From Bacteroidales bacterium (GTDB lineage Bacteria > Bacteroidota > Bacteroidia > Bacteroidales > UBA932), in NCBI GenBank assembly GCA_017557535.1, contig JAFYYM010000077.1, forward strand, positions 1-64,000: a stretch of 64,000 nucleotides of DNA. Reading direction: 5' to 3'. The translations under genes and the position numbers were made by a program. Shown here piece by piece: positions 43,160-61,436 of this stretch. The notes beneath the pieces were generated by a model that searched no databases, was not told the DNA's origin, and worked only from the letters and a program-made list of their open reading frames with translations. The stretch's first letter is position 1. Every line of letters begins with the position of its first letter.

Positions 43160-44125
43160 ATGAGAAGCATCAGATCAATTATCATGGCTTTTTTGGCCAT
43201 CATCGCGCTATCCCTTTGCTCATGCGATAAGAAACCGGTTAATATGCGCCTGCTATACTGGAACATCCAAAACGGGATGTGGGATGGGCAGAACGACAAC
43301 TACGACAGGTTCGTGGAGTTTGTGAAAGCCCAGAATCCGGACATTTGTGTATGGTGCGAGGCGCAGTCTATCTGGATCACAGACTCTGACCAGGCCATGC
43401 CCAAAGAGGATCGTTACCTGGTGGATGGCTGGGGGGAGCTTGCTGCCCGTTATGGACATCAATATTGGGGCATCGGAGGGTACAGGGATAATTACCCTCA
43501 AGTCATAACCTCCAAATATCCAATTACTTATATTGACAAGATCACCGGAGAGGAGCCTGACAGGATAGTGGCACATGGCGCTGGCTGGGCCACGGTCGAG
43601 GTAAACGGAAAGACTGTCAACATCGTTACCCTCCACACTTGGCCACAGGCATATGCCCCGGGAGTCGAGGACAGGGAGGCATCCAAGGCCGATCACGGAG
43701 GAGACAAATATAGGGCGATGGAGATGGAATATATCTGCGAGCATACTATCGGTACGTTCCCGGATGCGAAAGACCAGCTCTGGATGATGATGGGCGATTT
43801 CAATTCCCGCTCAAGGGTGGATAACGACAAGTATAATTTCCCCGATGACGACCCCAGGCTTCTAGTGCACGATTATATCCGTGAGAACACTCCCTACATT
43901 GATGTGATCAAAGAGAAATACCCCGATGAGTTTAAGCCCAGCGTGGGCAGCAAGAGTTCCCGCATCGATTTCGTGTATTGCACAAAACCTCTTTTAGACA
44001 GGATCTCTTTCGCTGATATCATCTGGGATGAGTACACGACCCCGATCCGTGATCCCCAAAACCTGTCCAACTTCTGGCGGCCATCAGATCACCTCCCAAT
44101 CATGATAGATTTTAATATGAAATAA
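43160..44125 (+). CDS. Endonuclease/exonuclease/phosphatase-family lipoprotein
   Basis: 321 residues. N-terminal lipoprotein-type signal with lipobox-like LCSC (Cys22). EEP fold: LLYWNIQNGMWDG, NPDICVWCEA (metal Glu), MMGDFNSRS (Asp/Asn), and RIDFVYCTK and SDHLPIMIDF (Asp-His pair). The catalytic set is complete. The family cleaves phosphodiesters or phosphomonoesters; secreted members act on sugar phosphates, sphingolipids or nucleic acids. It lies 6 bases before a type I phosphodiesterase gene, probably one operon. Substrate unknown. Confidence 0.82.
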   Translation: MRSIRSIIMAFLAIIALSLCSCDKKPVNMRLLYWNIQNGMWDGQNDNYDRFVEFVKAQNPDICVWCEAQSIWITDSDQAMPKEDRYLVDGWGELAARYGHQYWGIGGYRDNYPQVITSKYPITYIDKITGEEPDRIVAHGAGWATVEVNGKTVNIVTLHTWPQAYAPGVEDREASKADHGGDKYRAMEMEYICEHTIGTFPDAKDQLWMMMGDFNSRSRVDNDKYNFPDDDPRLLVHDYIRENTPYIDVIKEKYPDEFKPSVGSKSSRIDFVYCTKPLLDRISFADIIWDEYTTPIRDPQNLSNFWRPSDHLPIMIDFNMK

Positions 44126-44131
44126 TTGATT

Positions 44132-45055
44132 ATGAAAAAGTTTCTTCTCTTATTGGCTACCATTTGCCTCATCTCGTCAATAGATGCGGACGGTGCGAAG
44201 AAAAAGGCCAAACGTGTTGTCATGATCGGAATCGACGGCTGGGCTTCCGAGGGTCTCAGGACAGTTCCCGCGGCAGACCTCCCGAACATCCACTACCTTA
44301 TGGAGAATGGCAGTTGGACCCTCGCCAAACGCTCAGTCATGCCTTCAGCCTCAGCGATCAACTGGACGTCAATGTTCAACGGCCTTCCGACCGAGATGCA
44401 CGGATTCGACAAATGGAACTCCACAAGCGGGACCATTCCATCGACTTCTGACAATGGGAACGGCATTCCTCCGACAATATTCACGATCCTGCGCCAGCAA
44501 AGGCCTTCAGCCGAGATCGGATGCGTATACGACTGGGACTGCATCGGCATCCTCGCTGACTCTTTAGCGTTGGACTACAACTATTTCATCAAAACCTACA
44601 GGGGCCAGGAGACCCTTATCCCCACCGAGGAATACACGAAACTGGCGGTGAACTACATCAAGGAGAAGAAGCCGGATTTCTTCACCTTCTACTATGGGGT
44701 GATTGACAACACCGGACACCAGTACGGTTGGTACAGCCCTGAGTACATGGAATGCCAGAAGGAGATCGACAAGGGTATCGGGATGATAATCCAAGCCCTG
44801 AAGGACGCGGGAGTATTCGATGACACGATCCTGATCATATCCTCAGACCATGGCGGTAAGGGAAAGGGACATGGCGGGTTCACGATGTCCGAGCTAGAGA
44901 CCCCGTTCATTGTTTTCGGAAAGAAAGTCAAGAAAGGCTTTGAGTTCCCCGAGCCGATGATGCAGTACGACACAGCCGCGACCATCGCTTACATTCTCGG
45001 CCTGGACATCCCGGACGATTGGAGAGGGAAGCCCATGAAGCAGATATTCAAGTAG
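44132..45055 (+). CDS. Alkaline phosphatase superfamily protein (type I phosphodiesterase/NPP-like), secreted
   Basis: 307 residues. Signal peptide (MKKFLLLLATICLISSIDAD). Metal and active-site motifs: VMIGIDGWASEG (Asp), VMPSASAINWTSMFNG (nucleophile Ser/Thr region), GVIDNTGHQYGW (Asp/His) and ISSDHGGKGKGHGGFT (Asp-His and His). This fits ectonucleotide pyrophosphatase/phosphodiesterase-like enzymes. The frame begins two codons earlier with TTG; I chose the ATG at 44132. It is six bases after the EEP gene, so the two likely remove phosphate from one substrate in steps. Confidence 0.82.
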   Translation: MKKFLLLLATICLISSIDADGAKKKAKRVVMIGIDGWASEGLRTVPAADLPNIHYLMENGSWTLAKRSVMPSASAINWTSMFNGLPTEMHGFDKWNSTSGTIPSTSDNGNGIPPTIFTILRQQRPSAEIGCVYDWDCIGILADSLALDYNYFIKTYRGQETLIPTEEYTKLAVNYIKEKKPDFFTFYYGVIDNTGHQYGWYSPEYMECQKEIDKGIGMIIQALKDAGVFDDTILIISSDHGGKGKGHGGFTMSELETPFIVFGKKVKKGFEFPEPMMQYDTAATIAYILGLDIPDDWRGKPMKQIFK

Positions 45056-45072
45056 GAAACTACCTACTTTTT
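45050..45072 (+). terminator. Terminator between convergent genes
   Basis: AAGTAGG (45050-45056) pairs with CCTACTT (45063-45069) and is followed by TTT. Both stop codons, of the phosphodiesterase gene (TAG, 45053-45055) and of the FAD gene (45064-45066), lie within it. Confidence 0.6.
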
Positions 45073-47022
45073 CACAAAAAGGATAGCGTCAGCACGTACA
45101 TCGGGCCCGTCACCGGAGAATCGTATAGAACCTGTCGAGCCCTTTTTAAACGTAAAGGCTCCCAGATGGGCCCACTCTCCTTGCGTCTGTCCCTCCACAG
45201 TCAGGCTTTCACGGTTGAAATCCTTGGTGAAGGACTTCCCATCAGTCTCGATAGTGAACACCATATTAGGGCAACCAGTCCTTTGCTGGAAAGAATATAC
45301 GTCATATTCACCGTCGAGGTACTCCGGAATATTGTAGGACAGTTTATTGTCGGCAGGATCTCCACTATAGCTCAGATAGGTTTTACCATAAGCCCCGCGG
45401 CCATTGACAACCTCCCAGCCCTCTTTTCCGGTGATATATTCCGAATCCTCGTCAATAAGGGTGTCAGGCTCTCTTCCATCAAGGTAAGGATCCGTGGCGT
45501 AGATCTCCTGGATCTTACTCACATCCACATCCTGGACAGCGCCCTTGCCGGCCATCGCGGCCGCGATACCGCTGGACTGTCCCATCCCCAAGAACACAGG
45601 TTCCATGCGGATGGATCCGTAAGCGATGTGCGAAGCGGACAGGCAGACAGGCACGAGCAGGTTCTCGCACTCCTCCCGTTTGGGAGTCAGGCTGCGGTAG
45701 GAGATCGGATAAGGGCGTCCTCCTCCCCTCTCCACGTCACCCTCGTTCTTGACCATCAGCTTACCGTCCTTCTCGACAACCACCCTCTGGCAGTTATGAG
45801 AGTCCATCTGGTAGGCGGCAAAGCCTATCCCGTCGGTGACCTCAGTCTGGTTCTGGCAATCAGCCTGCGTGGCGACATATTCGCCGACAAGTCTCCTGGC
45901 CTCCCGGACATACAGCTGATGGGTCCAATGATCGGTCCTTAGGTACTCATCCTTAGGGAGTCCCCAGCGCCTGATCTCGTCCTGAAGGTTCTTCGGGACC
46001 CTCGGATCGGTCATATAAAAATAGAACAAACCGAGAGTGTAATCCTTGTGGGCTTTCAAGATCTTTTCCCTCTCTTCCCAGGAAGCATCCGGATAGGAAT
46101 GGTTCATCCCTATCATGTCTGTGGAGAAAGGTCCCCTGTTGTTGATGTCCGTCTTATGATTGGGCATCATGCTCCAGATGAAATAGTTACCCAACTGGGG
46201 ATTCGGATCGGCCTCGAATACCCTCACGAGAAGTTCAAACATGGAAGGGTCGTAATTATCCGGCTTCTGGATTGGGATCTGGTTCTCGGGCACATCTGTG
46301 AGGCAGATACGGTAGTTGTAGGCCTGGACATAATCGTCTCCAGAGCCGGTCTCCTGGAGCTTCCAGTCACTTATACCCCAGAGAAGTCCGCTCTCCGGCT
46401 TCCCTTTCTCGATAAATGGATCCACGCCATCGGGAAACTGGTGATGGATGGACATCTGCACGCCGTCATATGTCTCCCCATAGACCTCGTTGCCCTCACG
46501 GCCTACGATATAGCTGACTCCTGCCATGGCCATCAAATCTCCCTCATAGGAACAATCGATGAACTGGTCGGCCTTTATGGTGGTCTTCTGTCCTTCCTTG
46601 TTCTTGCAAGTTATTGACACTATTCTGGTTCCATTTTTCTCTACAGAGTCCAGATACCAACCTTGCATCACTTTTATCCTGGGGGCTTCAAGATATTCCA
46701 TCAGGATATCTTCCGCGACATGAGGCTCGAAAAGCCATTGCTCGAGCTTACCGTAGTATGATCCTAGTTTGCGATAGAACTGCCTGGCCAAGCCGACCAC
46801 AGCATGTTTGTTGCCAATGTCAGTCCGGCCAAGACCGCCAGTCGTCATGCCACCTATAGTGACATCAGGGCAAATAACGGTAACATCACTTCCGAGCCTG
46901 GCGGCAGAGTATGCCGCGGTGGCGCAAGCTGATGAACCACCGTATATGCAAACATCATTACCCCTGGCACATGATGCCAGGGATAATGATACGCAAATAA
47001 GTAATATAAGACAATTTCTCAT
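45064..47022 (-). CDS. FAD-dependent oxidoreductase lipoprotein with C-terminal golvesin-like domain
   Basis: 652 residues. Lipobox SLASC (Cys18). A Rossmann FAD-binding start (DVCIYGGSSACATAAYSAAR, a GGSSA variant) and IGGMTTGGLGRTDIGN match PF12831. Later the family signature SYEGDLMAMAGVSYIVGREG and LLVPVCLSASHIAYGSIRMEP appear. The last 130 residues (TYLSYSGDPADNKLSYNIPE, then VFTIETDG) form a beta domain like golvesin/xanthan-lyase C-domains. It probably oxidises a sugar or amine at the envelope. It follows SusD by 16 bases and is a paralogue of the FAD gene at 53.8-55.5 kb. Confidence 0.8.
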   Translation of the reverse strand: MRNCLILLICVSLSLASCARGNDVCIYGGSSACATAAYSAARLGSDVTVICPDVTIGGMTTGGLGRTDIGNKHAVVGLARQFYRKLGSYYGKLEQWLFEPHVAEDILMEYLEAPRIKVMQGWYLDSVEKNGTRIVSITCKNKEGQKTTIKADQFIDCSYEGDLMAMAGVSYIVGREGNEVYGETYDGVQMSIHHQFPDGVDPFIEKGKPESGLLWGISDWKLQETGSGDDYVQAYNYRICLTDVPENQIPIQKPDNYDPSMFELLVRVFEADPNPQLGNYFIWSMMPNHKTDINNRGPFSTDMIGMNHSYPDASWEEREKILKAHKDYTLGLFYFYMTDPRVPKNLQDEIRRWGLPKDEYLRTDHWTHQLYVREARRLVGEYVATQADCQNQTEVTDGIGFAAYQMDSHNCQRVVVEKDGKLMVKNEGDVERGGGRPYPISYRSLTPKREECENLLVPVCLSASHIAYGSIRMEPVFLGMGQSSGIAAAMAGKGAVQDVDVSKIQEIYATDPYLDGREPDTLIDEDSEYITGKEGWEVVNGRGAYGKTYLSYSGDPADNKLSYNIPEYLDGEYDVYSFQQRTGCPNMVFTIETDGKSFTKDFNRESLTVEGQTQGEWAHLGAFTFKKGSTGSIRFSGDGPDVRADAILFVKK

Positions 47023-47038
47023 CGAATCTCACGACAGG

Positions 47039-48883
47039 TTAATAGCCGGGATTTTGGGTGATATTAGGATTGACAAGGATATCATCAGCCGGGATTGGCC
47101 AGAGATAGTTCTTGCTGGCATCGAAGAACCTTTCTTTGAAGACAGCGATGTAACCGGCTTTCTCCATCGGGCTCAGATCCGGAAGTCCATTCTCGTCGAT
47201 AGACGGGATCCCTCCGAACGGATATTCTCCCTTGTCCCAATTGTCCAGCAGCTTGAGGAAGTCTTCAGAAAGCTCGCAATTAGCTTCAGCCCCCCTCTTG
47301 CCATTCCATTGCGCACTTCCGGACCAAACCCTGGGAAGGTAGTAAGAAGGTGTGTTATAAACCTTCTCAGCGATGCGCCAACGGAGCATGTCGCGATAAC
47401 GGGTATTCTCAAATGCGAACTCCATCCTGCGCTCCATGCGTATGATCTTACGCAAGGATGCCTGGTCTGTGAGTTCAACGCGCGGATAATCGATACCAGT
47501 CCCCGCATAAGCCCTTTCCCGGACTTTATTGATAGACTTGTCAAGGTCAGCCTGGGTGCAAGTGCCCAACTCATTCTTGGCCTCGATGAAGTTCATCAGC
47601 ACCTCGGCGTAACGAAGGTAAGGATAGATGTTGTCGGCAGCGAGATTGTGGCTCGCGAAATCAGCCCATGAAGGTTTCGAATACTTTCTCAGGGGAAGGC
47701 CTGTGTAAACAGAATGCAACTGCGTAGCCTTGGTGTCAGAGGTGGTGACGAGTGCTTTCTTGCGAGCGTCAAAGACCTTCGTGACATAGGGGTTGGGGGT
47801 GAACTCCACGGCCCCGATAAACAGGTAATCAGGATACTTCTCGGCGAAGGTCCCATCTTCCCTGGCCTTCAGATACTCTTCGTAATCAGGAGAATAAGGA
47901 GTCTTGAAGGGCTGTATGGTGTACGCCATGCGGGGGTCTCTGTTACGGAAAGGATCCTTGGGCTCGTAGAGCGGGGACTCGTCAATCGGCAGACCGTCAA
48001 CGCAAAGATATGAGCTGTAAAGCTGGTATGAAGGACCGGTATTGGTGTGTGCTCCGAGAGTTCTAAGCGTGAAATTCCTGACATTTGAGAACGGACCGAC
48101 TCCGTAAGGGACACTGATATCTCCCTGGAAATAGAACATCAATTCAGGAGATGATGTCGCTGTGAAGAGATCCTTGTAGTTAGAATGCAATGAATAAACA
48201 TTCAGTGCCATGCACTTCTCGCAAGCATCCACTGCCGTAGCCCAGTCACCGACCTGCAGAGCGAAGCGGCTCTTGAAACCGAGTGCCGCACCCTTGGTCA
48301 GACGCTTACGTCCCGAATAAGAATTAGGAAGCAGTTCAGCCGCCTTGTCCAGGCACTCATACGCATACTGGATAACCTCTGCCTTAGGAGAGCGTGTAGC
48401 GTTGTAGGCATCATCCAGTCCCATCGAGGTTTTTGCCAGAATGCAGTCACCGAAATAAGTGACAAGCTGTCCGTAACTGAATCCGATCATGCAATAGGAT
48501 TCTCCCATGAACTGGTTATACTTCTCCTTTGAGAGGTTCTGGGCGGCACCGCTTTCCAGTCCGGCTATGACGCCGAAGGCCCTGCTGATGGCTTTGTAGC
48601 AATTGGACCAGCGAGTCCCCACAAAGCCTGTCTGAGAGTTGATGGTGCCCAGGGTGATCTCGTTTTCGCGGTCCCTGAAAAGACAGTCGTCACTCCAATA
48701 GAACTCGTCGATTTGGAAGAAATCGGGTCTGTACCAGTCATCGACGCTCATCTCGATCTCGGACTCACTGGCGTACCAGTTGCCGGTTGCCAACTCGGAC
48801 AATGGCTTGATGTTAAGATCAGCGCAGGAGGCAAGAATGGCAACCACGGCCGCATATACTGTATATTTGAATAAATGTTTCAT
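47039..48883 (-). CDS. SusD/RagB-family nutrient-binding lipoprotein
   Basis: 614 residues. Lipobox ILASC (Cys20), then the SusD TPR-like helical core (KEKYNQFMGESYCMIGFSYG, KGAALGFKSRFALQVGDWAT) and the typical C-terminal motif YLRYAEVLMNFIEAKNELGT and RMERRMEFAFENTRYRDMLRW. It covers the SusC channel from outside and binds the ligand. It starts 13 bases after SusC. Confidence 0.95.
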   Translation of the reverse strand: MKHLFKYTVYAAVVAILASCADLNIKPLSELATGNWYASESEIEMSVDDWYRPDFFQIDEFYWSDDCLFRDRENEITLGTINSQTGFVGTRWSNCYKAISRAFGVIAGLESGAAQNLSKEKYNQFMGESYCMIGFSYGQLVTYFGDCILAKTSMGLDDAYNATRSPKAEVIQYAYECLDKAAELLPNSYSGRKRLTKGAALGFKSRFALQVGDWATAVDACEKCMALNVYSLHSNYKDLFTATSSPELMFYFQGDISVPYGVGPFSNVRNFTLRTLGAHTNTGPSYQLYSSYLCVDGLPIDESPLYEPKDPFRNRDPRMAYTIQPFKTPYSPDYEEYLKAREDGTFAEKYPDYLFIGAVEFTPNPYVTKVFDARKKALVTTSDTKATQLHSVYTGLPLRKYSKPSWADFASHNLAADNIYPYLRYAEVLMNFIEAKNELGTCTQADLDKSINKVRERAYAGTGIDYPRVELTDQASLRKIIRMERRMEFAFENTRYRDMLRWRIAEKVYNTPSYYLPRVWSGSAQWNGKRGAEANCELSEDFLKLLDNWDKGEYPFGGIPSIDENGLPDLSPMEKAGYIAVFKERFFDASKNYLWPIPADDILVNPNITQNPGY

Positions 48884-48895
48884 GATCTCCTTATT

Positions 48896-51800
48896 TTAGA
48901 ATGTGACGTTAACACCAAACAGGAAGGAAGTCAGCAGCAAGTCTCCACTGCGGTTCCATTCAGGGTCATATCCTTTAGGATAATTTGAGAGAGCTGGTAG
49001 GTCATTGACCGACGTGTAAATCCTGAGGTTATCAATCTTGACACGCCTGGTGAAGGTGCCCGGGATAGTGTAGCCGAGTGTGATATCTTTAACACGAAGA
49101 TAGCCTCCGTTGAAGAGCCAGAAATCGCTGCCCGCATACACGTTTGTCGTGTTGGTGGACAACAGCGGATATTTCGCCTTAGCATTTTCCTCATCTGTGG
49201 CGAAGGGGCTCCAATGACTGTCCATCACATTCTTCGGACAGGCATAGGCCTGTAGGTTGAATGGAGTAACCGGCCATGTCCAGTATGATAGCTGGTGGCC
49301 GATTCCCTGGAAGGACAGATTGAAATCGAAGCCCTTCCATGAAGCCCAGAAGGCACCGCCATACTGAAGCTCGGGAAGCGAATTGCCTCGATAGACACGG
49401 TCGCCAGAGGCGCTTATTATCCCGTCTCCGTTCTGATCCACGAACTGGAGGCAACCAGGCTTGTCACTTGCGGTGAGCACCGGTATCTTCTTACCGTCGC
49501 TTCCGGTCATCGCGGCCTCATTCAGGATAATACCCTTGCTCTCGTACATGTACCACTCCTGGAAGAAAGAACCTTCCTCAGTGATTTTGTTGTTACTTAT
49601 GGACTGTCTGTCAGCCATGTAACCCATGCGTGAGCGGTAGTCGGAGAGGTTGAATGACGCTCCATAGTTGAAATCTCCCACATGGTCTCTCCACGAGATG
49701 GAGAATTCCCAACCTTTGGTATTCATGTCAGCCGCATTGTTCTGAGGAGCATTGAATCCGAAATATGAGGGGAATCCGATCTGGAGCAGCATATCGGTGG
49801 TTTTCTTGTAATATACATCGCCAGTGAAATGCAGTCTGCTCTTAAACATCGCGAGATCAACTCCGGCTCCGTATGTGGTGGTAGTTTCCCAGGTGATGTC
49901 ATTAAAAGCGTAGTCAACCTGCTTGACATTCTGGGCCATATCCGGAGTCGCGCCTCCGGTTGGAATATAGCTGGTACCGACTGACAAGGTCGCCATGTAT
50001 GGGAACTCACTACCGATTCTCTCGTTTCCAAGCTGTCCCATAGAAGCGCGCAATTTGAGGAAGTTAACCGCACCCTTGTTATTGAACCAAGGCTCTTCAG
50101 AGATAACCCAACCAGCACTGAAGGAAGGGAATACGCCCCAGCGATAACCCTTCGCGAAACGGGAAGACGCATCCGCTCGGACATTCGCCTGAAGCAGGTA
50201 ACGATTGGCGAATGAATACATCAAACGTCCGAACACCGAGTTGTAGGCATTGTGGCCCGCAGTACCGCTGTTATACTGGAAATCCTCCGGTCCGAGATTA
50301 AGATAAGGATAGTTGTCAAGGGTGTAATTTGTCCTTGAGGCTCCAAGATTCTCCCACTGCGTTGAGAATCCCTCATAACCCGCCATCGCACTGATATTAT
50401 GACTTCCAAGGTTGACTTTATAGTTGGCGTAAAGCTGAGTAGTCATGTTGGAGCTGTTGTTGCGGGTCTCAGAGACCGAGGTCGAGCTGAACTGTGTAGC
50501 GTCTTTGTAAACCCCGCCATCGTTGAGTTGGAACTTCTTACGATGGGTTTTGCCATAACGGAAGTTATAGGTGGGAGCCGCGGCGGCAGTCAGGACGAAA
50601 CCTTTGAACAGCGTGAAATCAATCTGCAGTTTTCCGCTGACCCTGTAGAAATCGCTCTGGGCTTTTCCTCCAAGATCCATCGCGGCGATGGAGTTGTCTC
50701 CACTCTTACCATAAGCGTATTCTCCCGTGGAATAATATATAGGGTAGATAGGAGCCCTATACATAAGCGACTGCAAAACAGAGCCTTCCTGGTAGAGAGC
50801 ATAGTCATAATCACCTTTGACCAGGTTGATGTCAGCGGTGGCGTGAATCCAATTGTTGATGTAATAATCATTGTTGGATCTGACAGTGTACCTTTGGAAT
50901 CTCTTGCCCATGCTCAGACCGTTTCCATCGTAATAATTCACGGAAGTGCTCGTACGCAGTTTTTCGCTGCCACCAATCAGGGAGAAGAAGTGACGTTTAT
51001 GGTTCGTGGATTTCTTCAGGCCCTCTCCCATCCAGTCTGTGTCAGGATATGTATCAGGATCTTTCATGTGATATTGCTCGAAATTGTCGATGAGATCCTG
51101 AGAGTACATCGTGGTCCCTGCGTCATTATAGGAAACCTCGTTCATACCAGACATCCATAGAGCGGCTCTGGCGAATTCAGGGACAGCTGTAGGCTTGTCA
51201 ATGCCATACTCGAAATTGTAGTTCATCCTGAACTCGTTTGTCTTCGCCCTCTTCGTGGTCACAAGGATAACACCAGCGGCCGCGCGGGAACCATATATAG
51301 AAGCAGACGCCGCATCCTTCAGGACCTGTATGTCCTTGACATCTGACGAAGACACATCCTCCAGACTACCGGGGACGCCATCGATGATGACAAGAGGGTC
51401 ATTGGTTGAGTTGGTGGTAATACCACGGACACGGATAGTCGCGCCTCCGCTCGGGTCACCAGTGGAACGGGTGACCTGGACACCAGCCATCATTCCCTGC
51501 AACTGGGTGGAAAGCTGTGGTGTGCTCTTGGAAGAGATGCGTTCGCCTTCCACAGAGGAAGTCGCACCTGTCAGGTCGGCTTTCTTAGCTGAACCGTAAC
51601 CAATCACGATGACATCGTCGAGGTATTCTGAAGAGACATCCAGAGTGATTGTCATAGGAGAGAAAGAATTGACTGTCACCTCCTTGGTTTCATATCCGAC
51701 GGATGATATCCTGAGAGATTGCCCCTTCGAGACATTTAGGGAGAAGTTACCATCAAGATCCGTGACAGTACCGACAGTGGGATTCTGGACGATTACCACA

Positions 51801-52213
51801 CCGGCACCCATCACGGGAGCTCCGGAAGTCTCAAGTACCCTTCCTCTGATCCTTCCCTCCGAGGGAGCCGCCTTTCCTTTCGAGAAAGTGATGTAACCAT
51901 TGGAATAAGTGTAGTCGAGTCCGAATTTGGAAGCGAACTCTTGCACGAATGTGGAAAGAGGTGCTTCCTTGCGGCTGAATGTGACATTAGCAGAGGTTTG
52001 TATGTTAGCCTCGCTATATACCACAAGACAATTAGTCTGTGATTCCACCTCAGAGAAAAAATTCTCCACGGTGACAGTTGTTGAGCTCAAAGTGACACGG
52101 GAGGATGGCACCTGTGTCTGGCTCCAGGCAACAGCAGGCAATAGGAAACATGCCATAGAGAAGAGGACGACTCTCCATGCCGCCTTGAAATGGTTTGCTT
52201 TTTGATGACCCAT
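48896..52213 (-). CDS. SusC/RagA TonB-linked outer membrane importer with STN domain
   Basis: 1,105 residues from ATG 52213. Signal peptide (AWRVVLFSMACFLLPAVAWS), an STN signalling domain (about 38-110: VENFFSEVESQTNCLVVYSE), carboxypeptidase-like domain (RIRGRVLETSGAPVMGAGV), plug with TonB/SusC signature (GSAKKADLTGATSSVEGE; PLVIIDGVPGSLEDV) and a barrel ending FLFGVNVTF. The STN domain couples import to FecR/ECF signalling. A longer frame to 52279 would overlap fecR, so it was rejected. The importer works with SusD; ligand unknown. Confidence 0.95.
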   Translation of the reverse strand: MGHQKANHFKAAWRVVLFSMACFLLPAVAWSQTQVPSSRVTLSSTTVTVENFFSEVESQTNCLVVYSEANIQTSANVTFSRKEAPLSTFVQEFASKFGLDYTYSNGYITFSKGKAAPSEGRIRGRVLETSGAPVMGAGVVIVQNPTVGTVTDLDGNFSLNVSKGQSLRISSVGYETKEVTVNSFSPMTITLDVSSEYLDDVIVIGYGSAKKADLTGATSSVEGERISSKSTPQLSTQLQGMMAGVQVTRSTGDPSGGATIRVRGITTNSTNDPLVIIDGVPGSLEDVSSSDVKDIQVLKDAASASIYGSRAAAGVILVTTKRAKTNEFRMNYNFEYGIDKPTAVPEFARAALWMSGMNEVSYNDAGTTMYSQDLIDNFEQYHMKDPDTYPDTDWMGEGLKKSTNHKRHFFSLIGGSEKLRTSTSVNYYDGNGLSMGKRFQRYTVRSNNDYYINNWIHATADINLVKGDYDYALYQEGSVLQSLMYRAPIYPIYYSTGEYAYGKSGDNSIAAMDLGGKAQSDFYRVSGKLQIDFTLFKGFVLTAAAAPTYNFRYGKTHRKKFQLNDGGVYKDATQFSSTSVSETRNNSSNMTTQLYANYKVNLGSHNISAMAGYEGFSTQWENLGASRTNYTLDNYPYLNLGPEDFQYNSGTAGHNAYNSVFGRLMYSFANRYLLQANVRADASSRFAKGYRWGVFPSFSAGWVISEEPWFNNKGAVNFLKLRASMGQLGNERIGSEFPYMATLSVGTSYIPTGGATPDMAQNVKQVDYAFNDITWETTTTYGAGVDLAMFKSRLHFTGDVYYKKTTDMLLQIGFPSYFGFNAPQNNAADMNTKGWEFSISWRDHVGDFNYGASFNLSDYRSRMGYMADRQSISNNKITEEGSFFQEWYMYESKGIILNEAAMTGSDGKKIPVLTASDKPGCLQFVDQNGDGIISASGDRVYRGNSLPELQYGGAFWASWKGFDFNLSFQGIGHQLSYWTWPVTPFNLQAYACPKNVMDSHWSPFATDEENAKAKYPLLSTNTTNVYAGSDFWLFNGGYLRVKDITLGYTIPGTFTRRVKIDNLRIYTSVNDLPALSNYPKGYDPEWNRSGDLLLTSFLFGVNVTF

Positions 52214-52247
52214 CTTATTTTTAAATGATTGGTTTGTATAAATATTG

Positions 52248-53159
52248 TTATTGGAGATAAATCGTATTGGAAGACTCATCCTCTCTGATGGTGAAAGGAT
52301 ATATCCGGCTCATAACCCTCAATATCTCCCTCACCCCATCCGTCTGACGGAACTTGCCGGTGTATGTTTTCTTGAGAAGAGACTCGTTCAAGACCACTAT
52401 TCTGACATCGTAATACAACCCAAGCTTTGAAAGGATGTATTCCATGCTGCTATTGTTGAATGCATAAACCCCGTTGACCCACATGACAGGATTCTGGATG
52501 AAAATCTTCTTCACATAACCTCCATCCGACTCAACCAGCTGTTCGTTTGGATTCAGGAATAGACCAGATTCCTCTTTGCCTTCCTGATAGAGAAAAACCG
52601 ACCCTTCAAGCAAAGACACAGCAAAGGAATCGTCTTTATAATCCGAGATACTGAATTTTGTGCCCAGGGCCTTGACTTCCAGTTTGTCTGTCGAAACTAT
52701 GAAAGGATGGTTCTTGTCAGAGGACACTTCGAAGAATGCCTCACCCTCAAGAGAAACCTTTCTCTGATCATCGAATAAAGAGGGATATGTAAGCTTGGAA
52801 TTCGCGTTGAGCCAAACCTGGGTGCCATCAGAAAGGACACATTGGGCCATGTGCCCAGGAGGGGCTGAAGTGGTCATGTTTGTGACCGGGACATCCTCAA
52901 GAGATGCAGGAATCATTGAATGCCTCAAACTATCTATCGACAAGAAAGCCGCTACCAGGAGCAAGGGCAAGACTACCAAAGAATTGCGAAAAAGACGAGA
53001 TATACGTCTCCTGAATATGAATCTTCGCCAACTGGAACTCGAGTCTTCTCCGTCCTGGCTTTTCAAAGCCAGGATTGAGCGGACCTGCAGGCTGGAAACC
53101 ATCTCTCTTTCTCTCTCGGTCAAACACTCTTCCGAATATTCAGTGATTCTCTCGTCCAC
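52248..53159 (-). CDS. FecR-type anti-sigma regulator
   Basis: 303 residues. Cytoplasmic N-terminus (about 1-58), one membrane helix (60-76), periplasmic FecR domain (CVLSDGTQVWLNANSKLTYP, VSLEGEAFFEVSSDKNHPF) and a C-terminal DUF4974 domain (YAFNNSSMEYILSKLGLYYD). It receives the signal from the SusC STN domain and controls the adjacent ECF sigma. There is no ATG at the expected start; GTG at 53159 is the best candidate, so poor initiation may keep its level low. A start at residue 20 is possible. Confidence 0.9.
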   Translation of the reverse strand: MDERITEYSEECLTEREREMVSSLQVRSILALKSQDGEDSSSSWRRFIFRRRISRLFRNSLVVLPLLLVAAFLSIDSLRHSMIPASLEDVPVTNMTTSAPPGHMAQCVLSDGTQVWLNANSKLTYPSLFDDQRKVSLEGEAFFEVSSDKNHPFIVSTDKLEVKALGTKFSISDYKDDSFAVSLLEGSVFLYQEGKEESGLFLNPNEQLVESDGGYVKKIFIQNPVMWVNGVYAFNNSSMEYILSKLGLYYDVRIVVLNESLLKKTYTGKFRQTDGVREILRVMSRIYPFTIREDESSNTIYLQ

Positions 53160-53200
53160 GTCTTTAAAACAAACAATAAAGGAAATCCGTCAAAAGCGTT

Positions 53201-53737
53201 TTAATATTTGTTGAAGAAATCCTTCAATTCTTCCCTGAGTTTAGCATAAGCTATCTTCATCTGAGACTCTACCGTGTTGATAGATATTCCGAGTTCCTCA
53301 GCGATGGCATCCTGTTTTTTGCCATCAATCTTGCTCATGACGAATATCTGGCGGCATCTGGGAGGGAGAGTGTCAAGAGCTTGGTTGAATCGTGGCTCAA
53401 AGTTATCTCTCACCGTGCTATTCACATCGAACTCTTCCAAAGCGGCAAGTGACAAACGATCCAGGAATACGGATTCATCGCCACTCAGCTTTATTGACTT
53501 TTTGCGTAGCCTATTCGTCAAGTAGTTGATGCACCGGTTTTTAACGGCAGAGAAAAGGTAATAGGTAAGATTCAAGTCCTTTGACAAGGACTTCCTTTTC
53601 TCGAATATGTTCACGAATACTTCCTGGACGATATTCTCCGCCTCTGACTCATCACGAATGTATTCCATGGCAAAACGAATCGCCCTGAAATACCATCGCT
53701 TGTAGAAAGCTTCAAAATCCACCAGATCACTCGCCAT
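53201..53737 (-). CDS. ECF-type RNA polymerase sigma factor
   Basis: 178 residues from ATG 53737. Sigma region 2 (AMEYIRDESEAENIVQEVFV) and region 4 with a helix-turn-helix (LPPRCRQIFVMSKIDGKKQD, then ELGISINTVESQM). It is the common Bacteroidota FecI-like type that activates the downstream susCD. A TTG start at 53755 is in frame but unlikely. The FAD gene ends 23 bases upstream, so the sigma gene may share that transcript. Confidence 0.93.
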   Translation of the reverse strand: MASDLVDFEAFYKRWYFRAIRFAMEYIRDESEAENIVQEVFVNIFEKRKSLSKDLNLTYYLFSAVKNRCINYLTNRLRKKSIKLSGDESVFLDRLSLAALEEFDVNSTVRDNFEPRFNQALDTLPPRCRQIFVMSKIDGKKQDAIAEELGISINTVESQMKIAYAKLREELKDFFNKY

Positions 53738-53760
53738 ATCCAGGTAGAGCAGCAAGCGTT

Positions 53761-55485
53761 TTATATCCCTATTTCGGAGGCACCGGCCAAAGCCTCTTTC
53801 TGAATCTTTATGAAATCCGGATCCTCGGGGGAATGACCCTTCATATAGACAAGGGTGGCTCCTTGTTTAAGAAGCTCGTCTTGCAATGTGGGGATGTCGA
53901 CATCCTGGACAGATGTCCCCTTCTCTATAGCGAGCGCAGCTGCGGTGCCGGCAGCTTGCCCGAGCGCCATCCAACAAGGCTCCATCCTTAGAGTAGAGAA
54001 GCCGGTATGGGATCCCGACACAGGTACAGGGAACAGAAGATTAGATATCTCCTTAGGTACTATCACACCATAAGGCACATTGTAAGGCACTGTACGGTAG
54101 GACAGGAATCCCTCAAGATGAATCCTGCCGGGCTCGCGTTTGTGGTGGGCATGGGAATCCAGCGCATAATGGCTGGCCGTTATGGCATCTCTATGCAAGG
54201 GGCCCCGGTCTGTAGGTGGCTCAGCGTCATTGGCCGTGAAAAAATACATACCCTCAAATCTTCTACCTTCCCTAACATAGACCTGACGGGGGAAATTATC
54301 ATTATCAGTGTACTCATCAGCGGCGAAACCCCAACCATTGACCTCCTCACGGAAGCTGGCGGGAACAGCCTCATCATTAGCGGCGAACCAAAACAGTCCT
54401 TCGGTGTATTCCCGGAGTCGTTCGGCGAAAGCGTCCCTCCATTCCCACGAAGCGGTAGGCCACTGCCAGTTCTCCTCGGGCAAGTCTGTTGAGATGAAAG
54501 CCATATGCTGGTTGTTGGCATCAGTCTTGTCATTGGGAAGCTTCACCATGTTCGTCACCTTAGCGACGCCCCAGCGGTCATCGGGAATCGTGGTCCTTCC
54601 GCCTGAAAGGATGGTCTTCTTATTCTCTTCCCTCTGTTTATCAGTTACTTCCATACTAGCGACTCCTGTGTGATAGCCATAAAGGATATCATCGACCAGC
54701 GATACATATTCCTCACGATTGTAGTTGTCCGGCTTCCGGAACGGAACCATATTATCCTTGTTCCTTGTGAGACAGAGACGATAATTGTAAGCCTGGATAG
54801 TAGTGTCTCCTTCATAGGTGGTACCTTCCCCAACAGGACCTCCCCAGTATTTATAAACTTTACCGGCAATAGGCTCATTGAACTCTTCCATGCCTTCACG
54901 ACCAACCTTGAACGGTACTCCGGCAGCGGCGGCCAAATCCCCTTCGTAAGTGGCATCCACAAACACTTTTCCTCGGTAAACTTCTGTTTTCCCGGTTTCC
55001 CTGTTGAGTATTTTAATAGACACTATCCTATGGCCGTCCATCTTAATATTGGCCGATTGGCAGTCAAACTGTCTCATGGTCAGCACGGTCACATTCGGAC
55101 ATTCCGAAAGCATCTCGAAGAAGATTTCAGCAGCCACGCTCGGCTCGAAATGATATCCAGATGAGCAATCTCCAACCTGCTGGGAATCAGCACCGTACTC
55201 ATTGACATAATGGTCCTTTACCCGATTGACGAACTCCAGGAACAATCCTGTCGTAGCCCCGCGGGTAGCGATGTCAGTAGCGCCAAGACCATTAGCGGGC
55301 AAACCTCCGACAACCTTGGTCCTCTCTAAAACAAGCACAGATTTCCCCATTCTTGAGGCGGAGATAGCGGACATGATTCCACCGGGGGTGCCACCAACAA
55401 CAACCAAATCGTAATCACTGGTACAAGAAATCAAAAGAGATGCGGTGACTACCAGCGAGATAGCTAAAGAAAACCGTGCTTTCAT
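53761..55485 (-). CDS. FAD-dependent oxidoreductase lipoprotein (PF12831-type)
   Basis: 574 residues from ATG 55485. Lipobox LLISC (Cys21). FAD-binding motif VVVGGTPGGIMSAISASRMG and GGLPANGLGATDIATRGAT, followed by DATYEGDLAAAAGVPFKVGREG and LFPVPVSGSHTGFSTLRMEPCW, shared with the 45-47 kb paralogue. It lacks that protein's C-terminal beta domain. It lies 23 bases upstream of the sigma gene, so the regulatory genes are flanked by FAD enzymes. A surface oxidase or dehydrogenase of the imported ligand is the natural guess. Confidence 0.82.
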   Translation of the reverse strand: MKARFSLAISLVVTASLLISCTSDYDLVVVGGTPGGIMSAISASRMGKSVLVLERTKVVGGLPANGLGATDIATRGATTGLFLEFVNRVKDHYVNEYGADSQQVGDCSSGYHFEPSVAAEIFFEMLSECPNVTVLTMRQFDCQSANIKMDGHRIVSIKILNRETGKTEVYRGKVFVDATYEGDLAAAAGVPFKVGREGMEEFNEPIAGKVYKYWGGPVGEGTTYEGDTTIQAYNYRLCLTRNKDNMVPFRKPDNYNREEYVSLVDDILYGYHTGVASMEVTDKQREENKKTILSGGRTTIPDDRWGVAKVTNMVKLPNDKTDANNQHMAFISTDLPEENWQWPTASWEWRDAFAERLREYTEGLFWFAANDEAVPASFREEVNGWGFAADEYTDNDNFPRQVYVREGRRFEGMYFFTANDAEPPTDRGPLHRDAITASHYALDSHAHHKREPGRIHLEGFLSYRTVPYNVPYGVIVPKEISNLLFPVPVSGSHTGFSTLRMEPCWMALGQAAGTAAALAIEKGTSVQDVDIPTLQDELLKQGATLVYMKGHSPEDPDFIKIQKEALAGASEIGI

Positions 55486-55584: not shown

Positions 55585-56637
55585 CTACGGGCAGGTGGTG
55601 ACCGGATTGGCGCAAAGCCTTTCGGACTCAATCCAACCAGAAAGCTTGCCCCATTTGACTTTCACCCAGGAAGCATCTTCAGTCATGTCAACAGGATGGA
55701 CAAGAGCCTCCTGTTCCGTTATCTTGCCGACCAGTTTGGCGGTCTTGGAAGGAGAAGCATACAGCGGCTCATCCTTTCCGTCATAATTACGAAGACTTAT
55801 TCCCAGCACTGAATGATGTATCCAAGCCTCACCGCCTTCCTCGACAAGTTCCACGTCATCATTCTCCACCGTTGTGACGCATTCCGCGAAGATTCTCCAC
55901 CATCCATCAGTGGGTTGGTAGACATCCAGCATATAGTCCTCGTCAGGACTCAACTTGCATAGCAATGAGCCATTCGGGGCTGTACGGATATTAGTCGGGC
56001 TACTGTCCACTATGAAACATGCGACGGATGGCACCACATGTATATCCAGCTCGAAATTCCCATCACCGTCATAACGCAAGTATGCCGGCTCAGGTAAATG
56101 AGAGACATATGCCGTTATATCCTTCCCGGTCTGGGGCAGATGGTAACTCATGAATGGCACCTCCAAATTATAAAAGCTATTGTCCAGATCAGGCTCCAGC
56201 ATCCCGGTGTCTGGGTTGTAGTTGTATAGCATCAGCAGCGGGATCTCCTCCTCATAAACATTCAACATGTTGACAGCCACTAGTTTCCGTCCGTCTTTCC
56301 GATTCCAGTAGCACATCTCCATCCTGACAGTCCCGTCGCTGATAAAATCGAGGCTGCAGTAGCCATTCTTGCGATCAAGCACGAATTCGTTCACATCCTC
56401 GTTCACCCTGCCCGGGTTATCCAACTGGGCTTTAAGCTCGTCCATCAGGCTATTCCCTCGAAGAGTCTTGGCGAAAGCGTATGCGAACTCAGCTATACCG
56501 ATCTTCCCTTTGACTTGGGGTACCTCCAATGAAGATTTGGACCATTCCTCCCTGATTTTGTGGATAGTAAGTTCCTGGGCACCTGCAGACAGAACGCAGA
56601 GCAACAGCGAGGCAATTGAGATGATAAGTTTTTTCAT
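55585..56637 (-). CDS. Secreted protein with SH3-like domain, unknown function
   Basis: 350 residues. Signal peptide (MKKLIISIASLLLCVLSAGAQ). An N-terminal region with ISDGTVRMEMCYWNRKDG, then an SH3-type beta barrel (SPTNIRTAPNGSLLCKLSPD, about residue 215 on) and possibly a second SH3-like unit (ASPSKTAKLVGKITEQEALV, DASWVKVKWGKLSGWIESER). Bacterial SH3 domains often bind cell wall peptides. It is probably the last gene of a unit with glycerate kinase and the GH63-like gene. Function not known. Confidence 0.65.
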   Translation of the reverse strand: MKKLIISIASLLLCVLSAGAQELTIHKIREEWSKSSLEVPQVKGKIGIAEFAYAFAKTLRGNSLMDELKAQLDNPGRVNEDVNEFVLDRKNGYCSLDFISDGTVRMEMCYWNRKDGRKLVAVNMLNVYEEEIPLLMLYNYNPDTGMLEPDLDNSFYNLEVPFMSYHLPQTGKDITAYVSHLPEPAYLRYDGDGNFELDIHVVPSVACFIVDSSPTNIRTAPNGSLLCKLSPDEDYMLDVYQPTDGWWRIFAECVTTVENDDVELVEEGGEAWIHHSVLGISLRNYDGKDEPLYASPSKTAKLVGKITEQEALVHPVDMTEDASWVKVKWGKLSGWIESERLCANPVTTCP

Positions 56638-56679: not shown

Positions 56680-57702
56680 CTACACGAGAAAGTGGATGGC
56701 CGCATGGGATATATTTTTCCTGGCCACCTCCGGCCTAACCGCCTCAGAGGCCGGGACACTGTCAGGCGTAACCTGGATAACCCCGGAGAATCCTGCCGCG
56801 ATCAAGCTTTCCTCATCCTGGATCCTCCCAGATAGGAGATAGACTGGAACTCCCCTGCTTCTTCTCAGCACTCCCACCGGGACTTTTCCGGAAAGGGTCT
56901 GCTTGTCAGAAGTTCCTTCCCCCGTGATAATAAAGTCAGCATCAATCACTTCCTCATCAAACCCCACAAGATTCAGCACTGCGTCTATTCCGGAAAGCAG
57001 CTCCGCTCCAAAGTAAGCGTGAAGAGCTCCCCCAAGTCCTCCGGCGGCCCCAGTCCGAGGCATCAGGGAAATATCAACCCCAGTCTCGGAACAAATCCGT
57101 CCCGCCTGAATTTCCATCCGCTTCTCCAGCTCTTCAACCATCTGTGGATCAGCGCCTTTCTGCGGAGCAAAGACTCTTGCGGCCCCTCTTATTCCGATGA
57201 ATGGATTATCCACATCGCAAAGGGCTTTTATCTTGACTCCTGACGCTATATTACTAAGACCTGGAACGCTCATCATCCCCTCTCCCCCATCGCAGGTAGC
57301 GGAGCCGCCAAGACCGATCAGCAACTCTTCACATCCGCTTTGGATAGCAGCGACAATCAACTCCCCGACTCCTTTACTGGTGGCGATAAGAGGATTTCTT
57401 TTTCCCCTCGGCACAAGATTCAATCCGCAAGCCGACGCCACGTCCAGGATCGCTGTCTTCCCCACTTTCCCGAACCGAGCTTCAACGGTCTCGCCCATCG
57501 GCCCGGAGACCTTTACTGGAACCAATTCACCACCAAGGGATTCCGTCACTATTTCAGCCATCCCTTCTCCCCCGTCGGAGAGAGGAACTTGCCTGACCTC
57601 AGCGTCAGGAATGACTGAATATATCCCCTCCGAGATAGCGGAAGCGACCTCTCTCGCACCTAAACACTCCTTGAAAGAATCCGGAGCTACGACAATCTTC
57701 AT
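56680..57702 (-). CDS. Glycerate kinase, class I
   Basis: 340 residues of PF02595. Motifs: MKIVVAPDSFKECLGA, VPLSDGGEGMAEI, ACGLNLVPRGKRNPLIATSK, GLGGSATCDGGEGMM, GADPQMVEELE and DFIITGEGTSDKQTLSGK. It phosphorylates D-glycerate for entry to glycolysis, as 2- or 3-phosphoglycerate. It is shorter than the usual 375-380 residues; about 30 are missing after GGSATCDGGEG, before the SNIASGVKIKALCDV segment. It begins four bases after the GH63-like gene. Confidence 0.85.
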   Translation of the reverse strand: MKIVVAPDSFKECLGAREVASAISEGIYSVIPDAEVRQVPLSDGGEGMAEIVTESLGGELVPVKVSGPMGETVEARFGKVGKTAILDVASACGLNLVPRGKRNPLIATSKGVGELIVAAIQSGCEELLIGLGGSATCDGGEGMMSVPGLSNIASGVKIKALCDVDNPFIGIRGAARVFAPQKGADPQMVEELEKRMEIQAGRICSETGVDISLMPRTGAAGGLGGALHAYFGAELLSGIDAVLNLVGFDEEVIDADFIITGEGTSDKQTLSGKVPVGVLRRSRGVPVYLLSGRIQDEESLIAAGFSGVIQVTPDSVPASEAVRPEVARKNISHAAIHFLV

Positions 57703-57706
57703 ATTC

Positions 57707-59617
57707 TCAAGAATCCAGCAAGGCCATGAAACCCAGAAGCGCTCCCCAATGGTAGAAGGTGTCGCAACTGCTGCGGTCTCCTCCCTCTCCGGTTATCGCG
57801 TTCCAATTCTCGTAGATATAACCTTTTTCATTCCAACCCATAAGCATCAACCTCACGGATTTGTCGATGAAAGCCTTGCGGACAGACTCGTCTGGATAAT
57901 TCCTAAGGCCAAGATAAACCAGGAAGTTGGTGGGGCCCCAGATGCGTCCACGCCAATAATCCTGCTGTTGGAAAGCCGGGTCATTCCTGGGGCTCATGGG
58001 GATAACCCACTCTCCCCAGAACTCATTCTCATTCAGAAGGTGTTCCTCAACGATTCGCCTTGCCTGCTCCTTGGTAACCGCCCCAGCTAACAAAACATAG
58101 AAATTCGTTGCGGAGGTACGGCGGTTGAATTCCCCGGTCTCTGTGTTGATGTTGTAGAACATCCCGTCTTCCTCACACCAGAAACGCTGGATGTTTTTGC
58201 GGAAGAACTCAGCTCTTTTCCGCAATTCCTTGGCATCCTGCTTGTGGCCCAGCTCCTTGGCGATGAGGGCGAGGTGCTCGCAGTCCATAACATACATCGA
58301 AGTCAGGCCCACATCCTGAAGGTTCAGCTGTCCGGTCTCGGGATTGATCTTTACCCCATCGTACATTGAGGAATTGTCAAGACCGCTTTCCAGAATAGCG
58401 TGGTTGGTGCTGCCGGTCCCGCGCTCGCCGAGGCGGATACGCTTGACATTACTTCCCCAGCAAAGGAGTCCATCAGTTTGACGGGCCTCGATCCACCACC
58501 TGTTCCAAGTCAGCAACCTGGGGTACAACAGTTCCAGAAGCCATTTTTCCTTGAACTGGCTGTAGATATTCCACACAGCCATTGACCCTACCGGCGGCTG
58601 GGAACAGTCGGCGGTCAAGCTGTTGTGGTCGCTGCGGGACTTGGGTACGAAACCGCACTGGTCCACGGACTTGGTCATCTCCACGACATTGCTGTAGGCC
58701 AGTTCCCGGCTCACCCGGGAAGCCATGAATGACGCGAAATACGTGTCCCAGTCGAAAAGGACATATCCGCCATAATCCTGAACCATACTCCAGCGGAGGT
58801 TCCAATTCCTGCTAACCGGTGTCACCACGATATCATCTCCCGGATCGTAAATTGTGTCCCAGCTAAGGATGCTGTGGATGGCCCTGTAAAGTTCCTTGTT
58901 CTGGCCATAAGAGGCGCAGACTTCCTCCTCGAACACCCGTTTCTTCTCATTGAGAATCATCTCCGCCTCATTCACATTGAGGGGATCACCAGTGTAGATG
59001 AGAATAGGGCTTCCAGACTTGCAGAAATAGCTTCCATCCTGAAAACAAAGGCCTTCACCTAAGATCCCGCCAGCCATGCTGACATGCTTGTCCCTGGTCT
59101 CGAAACGGAAGGATGATTTCTCATCAAGCGTCAGCCTGTCCCTACCGGTGATGCTGTTCGCGTTCGGCCAGGCATATTCAGGTTTGATCCTGATCATTCC
59201 TTTCTGGTCAGTGTTCTCATCGGTCGGGGTGACAAGCATAAGAAGCCTGTCTCCATCTGAAGTGGAGCGCAACTTGACGGAGACTCCGTGCCAGGTGGCA
59301 TCCACTTCTGAATATGAGTTATCAAACACATGGTCATAAGGATGGACATAAGCAGCATCCTGCCTCGGGTTTCCGGCCCTGAGGTCTTCAGCCACCTCTC
59401 CTTTGGCATCGACCAGTGCCAGTTTCACGGAGAATGCTTCCGGAAGGTATAGCTGGGTGAACATGCTTCGTGTGTCCCAGGTATTCCATCCTGTCCTCAG
59501 GCTGTCAAGCATCCTATAATAATTCCGGACCGGTTCCAGGTCGCCATTTCTTGTTTTAGCACCAGCGACCGGCATGATGGCGCAGATCAATAGTGTCAGG
59601 AACAAAGTCTTTTTCAT
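57707..59617 (-). CDS. GH63/mannosylglycerate-hydrolase-like (MGH1-type) secreted enzyme
   Basis: 636 residues from ATG 59617 (MKKTLFLTLLICAIMPVAGA, signal peptide). An N-terminal beta domain (about 30-240) is followed by an (alpha/alpha)6 barrel with GH63/MGH1 motifs: GYVLFDWDTYFASFMASR (an Asp/Glu site), GFVPKSRSDHNSLTADCSQP, YDGVKINPETGQLNLQDVGL, WCEEDGMFYNI and QQDYWRGRIWGPTNFLVYLG. MGH enzymes hydrolyse mannosylglycerate or glucosylglycerate. Its neighbour is glycerate kinase at four bases, which fits release of glycerate. Other alpha-glucosidases share the fold, so the substrate is inference. Confidence 0.75.
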   Translation of the reverse strand: MKKTLFLTLLICAIMPVAGAKTRNGDLEPVRNYYRMLDSLRTGWNTWDTRSMFTQLYLPEAFSVKLALVDAKGEVAEDLRAGNPRQDAAYVHPYDHVFDNSYSEVDATWHGVSVKLRSTSDGDRLLMLVTPTDENTDQKGMIRIKPEYAWPNANSITGRDRLTLDEKSSFRFETRDKHVSMAGGILGEGLCFQDGSYFCKSGSPILIYTGDPLNVNEAEMILNEKKRVFEEEVCASYGQNKELYRAIHSILSWDTIYDPGDDIVVTPVSRNWNLRWSMVQDYGGYVLFDWDTYFASFMASRVSRELAYSNVVEMTKSVDQCGFVPKSRSDHNSLTADCSQPPVGSMAVWNIYSQFKEKWLLELLYPRLLTWNRWWIEARQTDGLLCWGSNVKRIRLGERGTGSTNHAILESGLDNSSMYDGVKINPETGQLNLQDVGLTSMYVMDCEHLALIAKELGHKQDAKELRKRAEFFRKNIQRFWCEEDGMFYNINTETGEFNRRTSATNFYVLLAGAVTKEQARRIVEEHLLNENEFWGEWVIPMSPRNDPAFQQQDYWRGRIWGPTNFLVYLGLRNYPDESVRKAFIDKSVRLMLMGWNEKGYIYENWNAITGEGGDRSSCDTFYHWGALLGFMALLDS

Positions 59618-59684
59618 GATTATCAGCAGTGTTGTTTTTACCCTATGACAAAAATACTCTTTTTCATGGATAATCCAACATTGG

Positions 59685-61213: not shown

Positions 61214-61367
61214 AGGGCTACATGTAAAGCCAGGCGGAAAGCGGTAGTCAGAGCGGCAAGTCGGAGCGAAGCGACCAGAGGGAGTTTGAGGGATACTTCC
61301 CTCAATGAATAATAGGCCCTTCAGGGCTACAAGTAAAGCCAGGCAAAATGCCTGGCTTTACTTGTAG
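61214..61367. repeat. REP-like palindrome cluster between the RAYT gene and tRNA-Arg
   Basis: AGGGCTACATGTAAAGCCAGGC (61214-61235) recurs at 61323-61344 with one mismatch. Between them are TGAGGGA/TCCCTCA, AGGCCCT/AGGGCT hairpins and a GGAGCGAAGCGACC core similar to that at 17.79 kb. The final repeat is part of an 18-bp perfect hairpin that reaches into the tRNA. Confidence 0.6.
61327..61367 (-). terminator. 18-bp perfect hairpin at the 3' end of tRNA-Arg
   Basis: CTACAAGTAAAGCCAGGC (61327-61344) is the exact inverted complement of 61350-61367, with a five-base loop. On the minus strand it lies at once after the tRNA and includes its last three bases, so it may terminate or guide processing of the transcript. 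No T run follows. Confidence 0.5.
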
Positions 61368-61436
61368 TCCCTAGTGGAATCGAACCACTATTTAAGGTTT
61401 AGGAAACCTCCGTTCTATCCGTTGAACTAAGGGACC
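61365..61436 (-). tRNA. tRNA-Arg, anticodon CCT
   Basis: 72 bases that fold as a complete cloverleaf: acceptor GGTCCCT/AGGGACT, D arm GTTC/GAAC, anticodon stem GAGGT/ACCTT with loop TTCCTAA, T arm AGTGG/CCACT with TTCGATT, discriminator A. The anticodon CCT (34-36) reads AGG, so it is tRNA-Arg. CCA is not encoded. It lies 19 bases after rpmF on the same strand and probably comes from that transcript. Confidence 0.93.

Follow-up and report, generated by a model that had tools for sequence, protein, structure and literature searches.

What would two secreted flavoproteins do on either side of a SusC/SusD nutrient-uptake locus? The question is raised by a 64,000-nucleotide stretch of the genome of a rumen-type Bacteroidales bacterium (family UBA932, assembly GCA_017557535.1, contig JAFYYM010000077.1, positions 1 to 64,000; hereafter the window), in which two PF12831 lipoprotein genes, FAD1 and FAD2, bracket genes for an extracytoplasmic function (ECF) sigma factor, a FecR-type anti-sigma factor, SusC and SusD. 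An earlier sequence-only reading had proposed that the imported ligand is oxidised at the envelope. We found that the association of SusCD, ECF and FecR with PF12831 recurs in Bacteroidota, the exact order of the window being rare while its content recurs. Judged from related loci, the bracket itself is the junction of two modules. Whether this is a ligand-induced SusCD nutrient locus, in which periplasmic flavoproteins would redox-modify a sugar-containing ligand, we regard as evenly balanced; both the chemistry and the ligand in this proposal are inferred.

The six genes singled out by that reading were all found where it had placed them, on the minus strand between 45064 and 55497. Both FAD proteins are of type PF12831, with 351 and 320 bits against a curated Pfam cut-off of 27 bits, and the quoted motifs are present in the translations (GDLAAAAG in FAD1, GDLMAMAG in FAD2, SAS/SGS before RMEP). 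Three more same-strand genes lie directly upstream of FAD1, so that the directon comprises nine genes, listed here in their order on the strand and followed by two candidate signals.

57707..59617, minus strand: GH63/MGH1-like secreted glycoside hydrolase, at the head of the directon (PF22422, E 5e-44)
56680..57702, minus strand: glycerate kinase (PF02595, E 1e-108; TIGR00045 over cut-off)
55585..56637, minus strand: SH3-like secreted protein (PF06347, 23.5 bits, just under the cut-off of 24.1)
53761..55485, minus strand: FAD1, PF12831 lipoprotein (PF12831, E 4.9e-95; frame open to 55497, ATG at 55485)
53201..53755, minus strand: ECF sigma factor (TIGR02985 over cut-off)
52248..53159, minus strand: FecR-type anti-sigma factor (PF04773 FecR, PF16344 FecR_C)
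48896..52213, minus strand: SusC TonB-dependent transporter (TIGR04056, 835 bits; frame open to 52279, likely start 52213)
47039..48883, minus strand: SusD-like lipoprotein (PF07980, PF14322 SusD_RagB)
45064..47022, minus strand: FAD2, PF12831 lipoprotein with golvesin/xanthan-lyase-type C-terminal domain (PF12831, E 1.4e-104; PF25275 over cut-off)
59649..59656, minus strand: candidate -7 element of the Bacteroidota type, TATTTTTG, an exact match to the consensus that lies 39 bp ahead of the ATG of the glycosidase gene
45050..45069, no strand assigned: short inverted repeat with a T run, a possible terminator between FAD2 and a convergent Type I phosphodiesterase-like (PDE) gene, read by eye and not among the listed sites

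Intergenic distances are short throughout: 4 bp between glycosidase and kinase, 42 bp between kinase and SH3-like gene, 99 bp to FAD1, then 5 bp (FAD1-ECF), 41 bp (ECF-FecR), 34 bp (FecR-SusC, if SusC starts at 52213), 12 bp (SusC-SusD) and 16 bp (SusD-FAD2). Because of these gaps of 4-99 bp and the -7 element before the first gene, the run of genes between 59617 and 45064 is probably one operon, presumably read as a single transcript. A second exact match to the -7 consensus stands 45 bp before the SH3-like gene, no exact match occurs within 250 bp upstream of the ECF gene, and a strict search of the window for -33 plus -7 gave two matches, both on the plus strand and in line with chance.

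How often is this gene content found elsewhere? A scan of species genomes for FAD1 yielded 232 relatives; the analysis continued with the 80 best loci, a choice that favours close FAD1 relatives and includes several loci ending at contig ends; one (L037) was dropped for lack of a FAD1 frame from the open reading frame caller, leaving 79 scorable loci. FAD2 lies within 4 kb of FAD1 on the same strand in 29 of them (as direct neighbour in 23) and SusC within 9 kb in 35, while FAD2, SusC and SusD occur together in 23, with FecR as well in 19 and ECF as well in 17. Most of the 79 loci are thus without an adjacent FAD2; where the contig extends 9 kb or more in both directions, it is present in 21 of 43. 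The gene order had been expected to be conserved across Bacteroidota; what recurs is the association, and the exact order FAD-ECF-FecR-SusC-SusD-FAD is complete in none of the 79 scored loci. One locus (L035) fits it as far as its stretch runs before the contig end, and another (L079) reads FAD1-ECF-FecR-SusC-SusD. Typical orders are ECF-FecR-SusC-SusD-FAD2-FAD1-MFS (MFS, major facilitator superfamily) in Chryseolinea and kin, ECF-FecR-SusC-SusD-FAD1-FAD2 in Spirosoma and Larkinella, and SusC-SusD-FAD2-FAD3-FAD1 in Parabacteroides. Both flavoproteins are uncommon: FAD1 (E≤1e-40) was found in 17 of 299 family genomes, about four of them through weak partial matches, and FAD2 (E≤1e-80) in 20 of the 299, while a phylum sample of 392 genomes (E≤1e-120) gave 4 and 13, respectively, with the window's own genome counted each time. 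No description of a locus type combining SusCD, signalling genes and PF12831 was found in the open-licence literature searched.

These counts bear on the simplest alternative, that this is an ordinary polysaccharide utilization locus (PUL) in which glycosidases degrade the ligand and the flavoproteins are accessory, FAD genes lying near SusCD through their abundance in glycan-degrading genomes. Like SusCD PULs with ECF/FecR, the window has a SusC-SusD pair, dedicated regulators and a glycosidase in the directon, the GH63/MGH1-like enzyme, whose activity is predicted; unlike them, it has two PF12831 flavoproteins bracketing the SusCD cassette and one glycosidase only, and a few of its relatives are without a labelled glycosidase in the directon. 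The sequence-only reading had noted that no glycosidase lies between the two FAD genes; as a property of the operon, freedom from glycosidases does not hold: a glycosidase heads it, next to the glycerate kinase, and at least 30 of the 79 FAD1 directons carry a labelled glycosidase (neighbour labels derive from scanned representatives plus similarity). The window's genome also has 22 PF12831 matches, 17 of them above cut-off, as abundance would have it. On the other hand, when these matches were merged to 12 genes (two short over-cut-off matches, C118 and C58:192624, left out), three of the 17 over-cut-off SusC genes (on C56, C53 and C127) had two PF12831 genes within 10 kb, a level reached in 1 of 20,000 random placements of 12 PF12831 and 17 SusC genes on a genome treated as one line of its length, with contig breaks ignored and positions hand-rounded. 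Five directons (L051, L053, L063, L072, L098) moreover hold nothing beyond ECF, FecR, SusC, SusD, FAD1 and FAD2, with or without MFS, judged on frames of at least 90 aa, and a sixth (L097) has the same content minus a called ECF. A plain chance neighbourhood is rejected by the locus counts and the placement test together, and we consider the ordinary PUL rather unlikely. The same genome carries a FAD1 paralogue (C58:213840-215395, locus L114), 67-80% identical and split over two frames, broken or misassembled; its neighbours are GH29, MFS, short-chain dehydrogenase/reductase (SDR), enolase-type and UxuA-like genes.

The make-up of the bracket became apparent from close relatives. The nearest (genome G212, contig of L034/L120) has a FAD1 88% identical to that of the window in the order glycosidase-kinase-SH3-FAD1, followed 28 bp on by a convergent PDE gene, and the cassette from ECF to FAD2 is absent there. 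Conversely, a genome of the window's own genus (G298, L146) carries GH92-ECF-FecR-SusC-SusD-FAD2 and is not among the 17 family genomes with a FAD1 match at E≤1e-40. Since the FAD1 half is found alone in the one and the cassette without FAD1 in the other, the two halves can exist apart and their meeting in the window is a junction of modules. The ECF-FecR-SusC-SusD-FAD2 module recurs in four loci (L146, L158, L159, L183), a Sphingobium plasmid (L184) carries its counterpart without SusD, ECF-FecR-STN TonB receptor-PF12831, and the SH3-like gene is kept beside FAD1 in L034/L120 and L035. L035, a roe-deer rumen contig, spans SH3-FAD1-ECF-FecR-SusC with 65-87% identity to the window proteins, and an assembly artefact at the junction is unlikely given this independent contig. 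Recent foreign origin of the cassette finds no clear sign in composition (G+C between 0.44 and 0.52, with only ECF and FecR low, where the window as a whole has 0.51); a plasmid search with SusD returned 70 records, every one below 60% identity. On another contig of G212 (L150, 9355-18090) SusC-SusD precedes a tandem of three FAD2-like genes and a frame in which PF12831 is fused to GH29. As for the surroundings of the operon, the PDE gene and, by eye, an endonuclease/exonuclease/phosphatase-like gene, together at 43160-45055, are convergent to FAD2, and both are retained beside FAD1 in G212; upstream, at 60235-61167, lies a transposase-like protein gene (IS200/REP type, by eye) near a tRNA-Arg at 61364-61436.

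Are FAD1 and FAD2 related enzymes, and do both look able to bind FAD? A quick tree of 136 rows places them in separate supported clades (FAD1 86 rows; FAD2 31, or 35 with four outer relatives), the branching within which looks similar by eye; FAD3 is distant on a long branch, of a kind that the tree program warns may be misplaced. At 68 positions the two clades have a residue in common in at least 97% of distinct rows, among them YVRE[AG]RR, DSH, RMEP and the His before it, and these residues make up a candidate shared pocket. FAD-binding residues had been expected in both proteins. Two canonical residues, the dinucleotide motif's third Gly and a Glu as the acidic residue after strand 2, are retained in 91 of the 92 distinct FAD1 rows; the remaining row is truncated. 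The FAD2 of the window has both replaced, by Cys33 and Cys51, which is why the FAD2 of its group probably binds flavin differently, weakly or not at all. Among its close relatives in genus and family (>60% identity, n=11 with the window included) the acidic residue is Cys in 11/11 and the third Gly is Cys, Ser or Ala in 11/11, with the shared pocket residues kept; the Cys-bearing rows are the window and relatives in L115, L146-L151 and L156. In the other 39 distinct FAD2 rows Gly is found 38 times and Glu 35 times (39/40 and 36/40 before duplicate removal). FAD2 resembles PF12831 proteins with a golvesin/xanthan-lyase C-terminal domain in having both domains over cut-off and differs from them in the two Cys; with its C-terminal part, a profile built from 32 FAD2 rows finds the C-terminal domain of xanthan lyase 6f2p at E 1e-21.

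AlphaFold models of FAD1 and FAD2 have a mean pLDDT of 91.1 and 85.5, and their Foldseek matches comprise MnmG, fumarate reductase, ketosteroid dehydrogenase and aromatic hydroxylases. Sequence searches of solved structures matched only the N-terminal dinucleotide part of either protein and the C-terminal domain of FAD2, and none found in this way spans the FAD part of FAD2. Twin-arginine signals were recognised in five FAD1 rows from Spirosoma, Larkinella and Arsenicibacter (our assessment of the 8 matches that the pattern gave among 64 rows) and in 7/7 FAD3 proteins, which supports export of the folded protein. FAD3 denotes PF12831 proteins of about 870-1010 aa (L045, L047, L056, L059, L064, L075, L096); in the one scanned, from L047, Pfam matched nothing in about 400 N-terminal residues beyond the signal.

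What, then, would switch the locus on? Fec-type signalling, in which ECF sigma factor, FecR and receptor are arranged together, predicts induction by the imported ligand. FecI-FecR-FecA, its cell-surface form with the ECF, FecR and TonB-dependent receptor genes in order, has an ABC importer as partner. The window has the same three genes in order, but its SusC is adjacent to and paired with SusD, a PF12831 protein takes the place of the ABC importer, and an STN domain was not detected by Pfam. The transporter had been called STN-SusC: the SusC part stands, at 835 bits to TIGR04056, and for the STN part there was no match at E≤1. In a scan of 26 SusC proteins at E≤0.1, STN was matched in 16, the window's not being one of them.

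Ferric chelates are the classical cargo of ECF-FecR-TonB receptor units, so the locus might acquire iron or siderophores, a periplasmic flavoenzyme releasing iron from the chelate. The order ECF-FecR-STN TonB receptor-PF12831 on the Sphingobium yanoikuyae plasmid pKN1 (L184; one record, from another phylum, without SusD, its PF12831 protein 42% identical to FAD2) would suit such a role. We nevertheless consider it highly unlikely, given the SusD partner, the sugar-processing neighbours and open frames in which PF12831 is joined to GH130, GH28 or GH29. The main text of an iron-stimulon paper on Bacteroidetes (PMC10434189) does not contain the term 'FAD-dependent', which speaks weakly in the same direction.

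The fused frames also say something about the substrate. PF12831 is joined to GH130 and a GDSL esterase in L057 and to GH28 in L131, and a more distant PF12831 to GH29 in L150, sequencing errors being possible in all three. Together with the frequent glycosidase neighbours they indicate sugar chemistry. In the reading that we favour, a redox-modifying nutrient locus, the ligand would be imported by SusC/SusD, and FecR and the ECF sigma factor would sense SusC occupancy and turn the operon on. In the periplasm FAD1 and FAD2 would oxidise or reduce the ligand at one of its sugar or polyol positions, and the GH63/MGH1-like enzyme would cleave a glycosidic bond; at least one product would end as glycerate, to be phosphorylated by the cytoplasmic kinase. 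The envelope oxidation put forward by the sequence-only reading is plausible as a putative step, whereas amine- or acid-bearing glycans as the ligand received no direct support.

A link to glycerate is suggested by locus L060, where a glycerate kinase stands 527 bp before FAD2-FAD1; it is one of two among the 80 FAD1 loci with such a kinase, the other being L034. The glycosidase of the window also scores over cut-off for Trehalase and GH63 C-terminal domains, has a Sec signal by eye, and the Glu of its YENWNAITG aligns with that of QENYNPLTG in YgjK, which we take to be catalytic. The pairing of an MGH1-like domain with a neighbouring glycerate kinase recalls the GH63 mannosylglycerate/glucosylglycerate hydrolases with their kinase; unlike the glucosylglycerate hydrolases, however, the window enzyme reaches 66.4 bits against the model NF047898, whose equivalog cut-off is 550. 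Its relatives (8 places in 7 other of 149 family genomes, on contig stretches of 3.7-19 kb) lie in other neighbourhoods. Glucosylglycerate use was therefore dropped as sole reading and survives as a hint.

The same kinase could instead belong to a sugar-acid route, in which FAD1 and FAD2 oxidise periplasmic sugars to aldonates or lactones and an anion-type MFS transporter imports the products. For three MFS neighbours the best-scoring models are transporters of aromatic acids, D-galactonate and phosphoglycerate, and further neighbours resemble galactonate and mannonate dehydratases and a KduD-like SDR, all below cut-off, while in Spirosoma (L111/L113) an enolase-type dehydratase, an SDR, a lactonase and an RraA aldolase precede FAD1-FAD2. 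The lactonase of L111, however, has no signal peptide, and with an SDR present the sugar oxidation there could be cytoplasmic. In L036 and L114 the acid genes are convergent to FAD1, and among the 80 loci a lactonase was seen in 2, an aldolase in 2, a dehydratase of two query types in 3 and, as above, a glycerate kinase in 2. We judge this route unlikely.

A bolder variant starts from directons without a labelled glycosidase, where the flavoenzymes themselves would cut the SusCD-imported ligand: one would oxidise a sugar hydroxyl, the glycosidic bond would be lost by elimination, and the partner would reduce the product. NAD-dependent oxidation-elimination pathways for glycosides, with Gfo/Idh and DUF1080 proteins, were reportedly described in a 2024 Nature study, and FAD1 and FAD2 (with FAD3 in Parabacteroides) would be their flavin-based counterpart. 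In both cases oxidoreductases stand beside SusCD; Gfo/Idh or DUF1080, however, was matched in none of the nine window proteins in a Pfam scan. We consider this variant quite improbable. In one FAD1 locus (L058, 8406-9782) a Gfo/Idh oxidoreductase occupies the place that FAD2 has in sister Parabacteroides loci, giving ECF-FecR-SusC-SusD-Gfo/Idh-FAD1.

Several results count against the redox-modifying nutrient locus, too. Neither flavoprotein model has a good likeness among solved structures (TM ≤0.34 when scaled to the query length, over the top 50 rows of either Foldseek search), the FAD2 of the window is without its two canonical FAD-site residues, and a twin-arginine match was found in 0/31 FAD2 rows. 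No gene for an electron acceptor was recognised in the locus, and STN was missing from its SusC in the Pfam search. Strict co-occurrence of FAD1 and FAD2 was not found in the 299 family genomes; the nearest relative has glycosidase, glycerate kinase, SH3-like gene and FAD1 without a SusCD cassette, and FAD2 is present in 0/13 other rows of the window's FAD1 subclade on the stretches examined, some of which end early. The kinase is the sole glycerate kinase found in the genome, at a single locus, and may be housekeeping; none stands near the glycosidase relatives in any of the 8 places, and GH29, GH106 or GH30 genes lie near some of them.

PF12831 proteins are numerous in this genome and recurrent in carbohydrate loci. 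A recurring module of signalling and uptake genes around them would offer a handle, through inducer, transporter and knock-out, on their substrate and chemistry, and such a module would widen the processing in SusCD loci beyond classical hydrolases and lyases.

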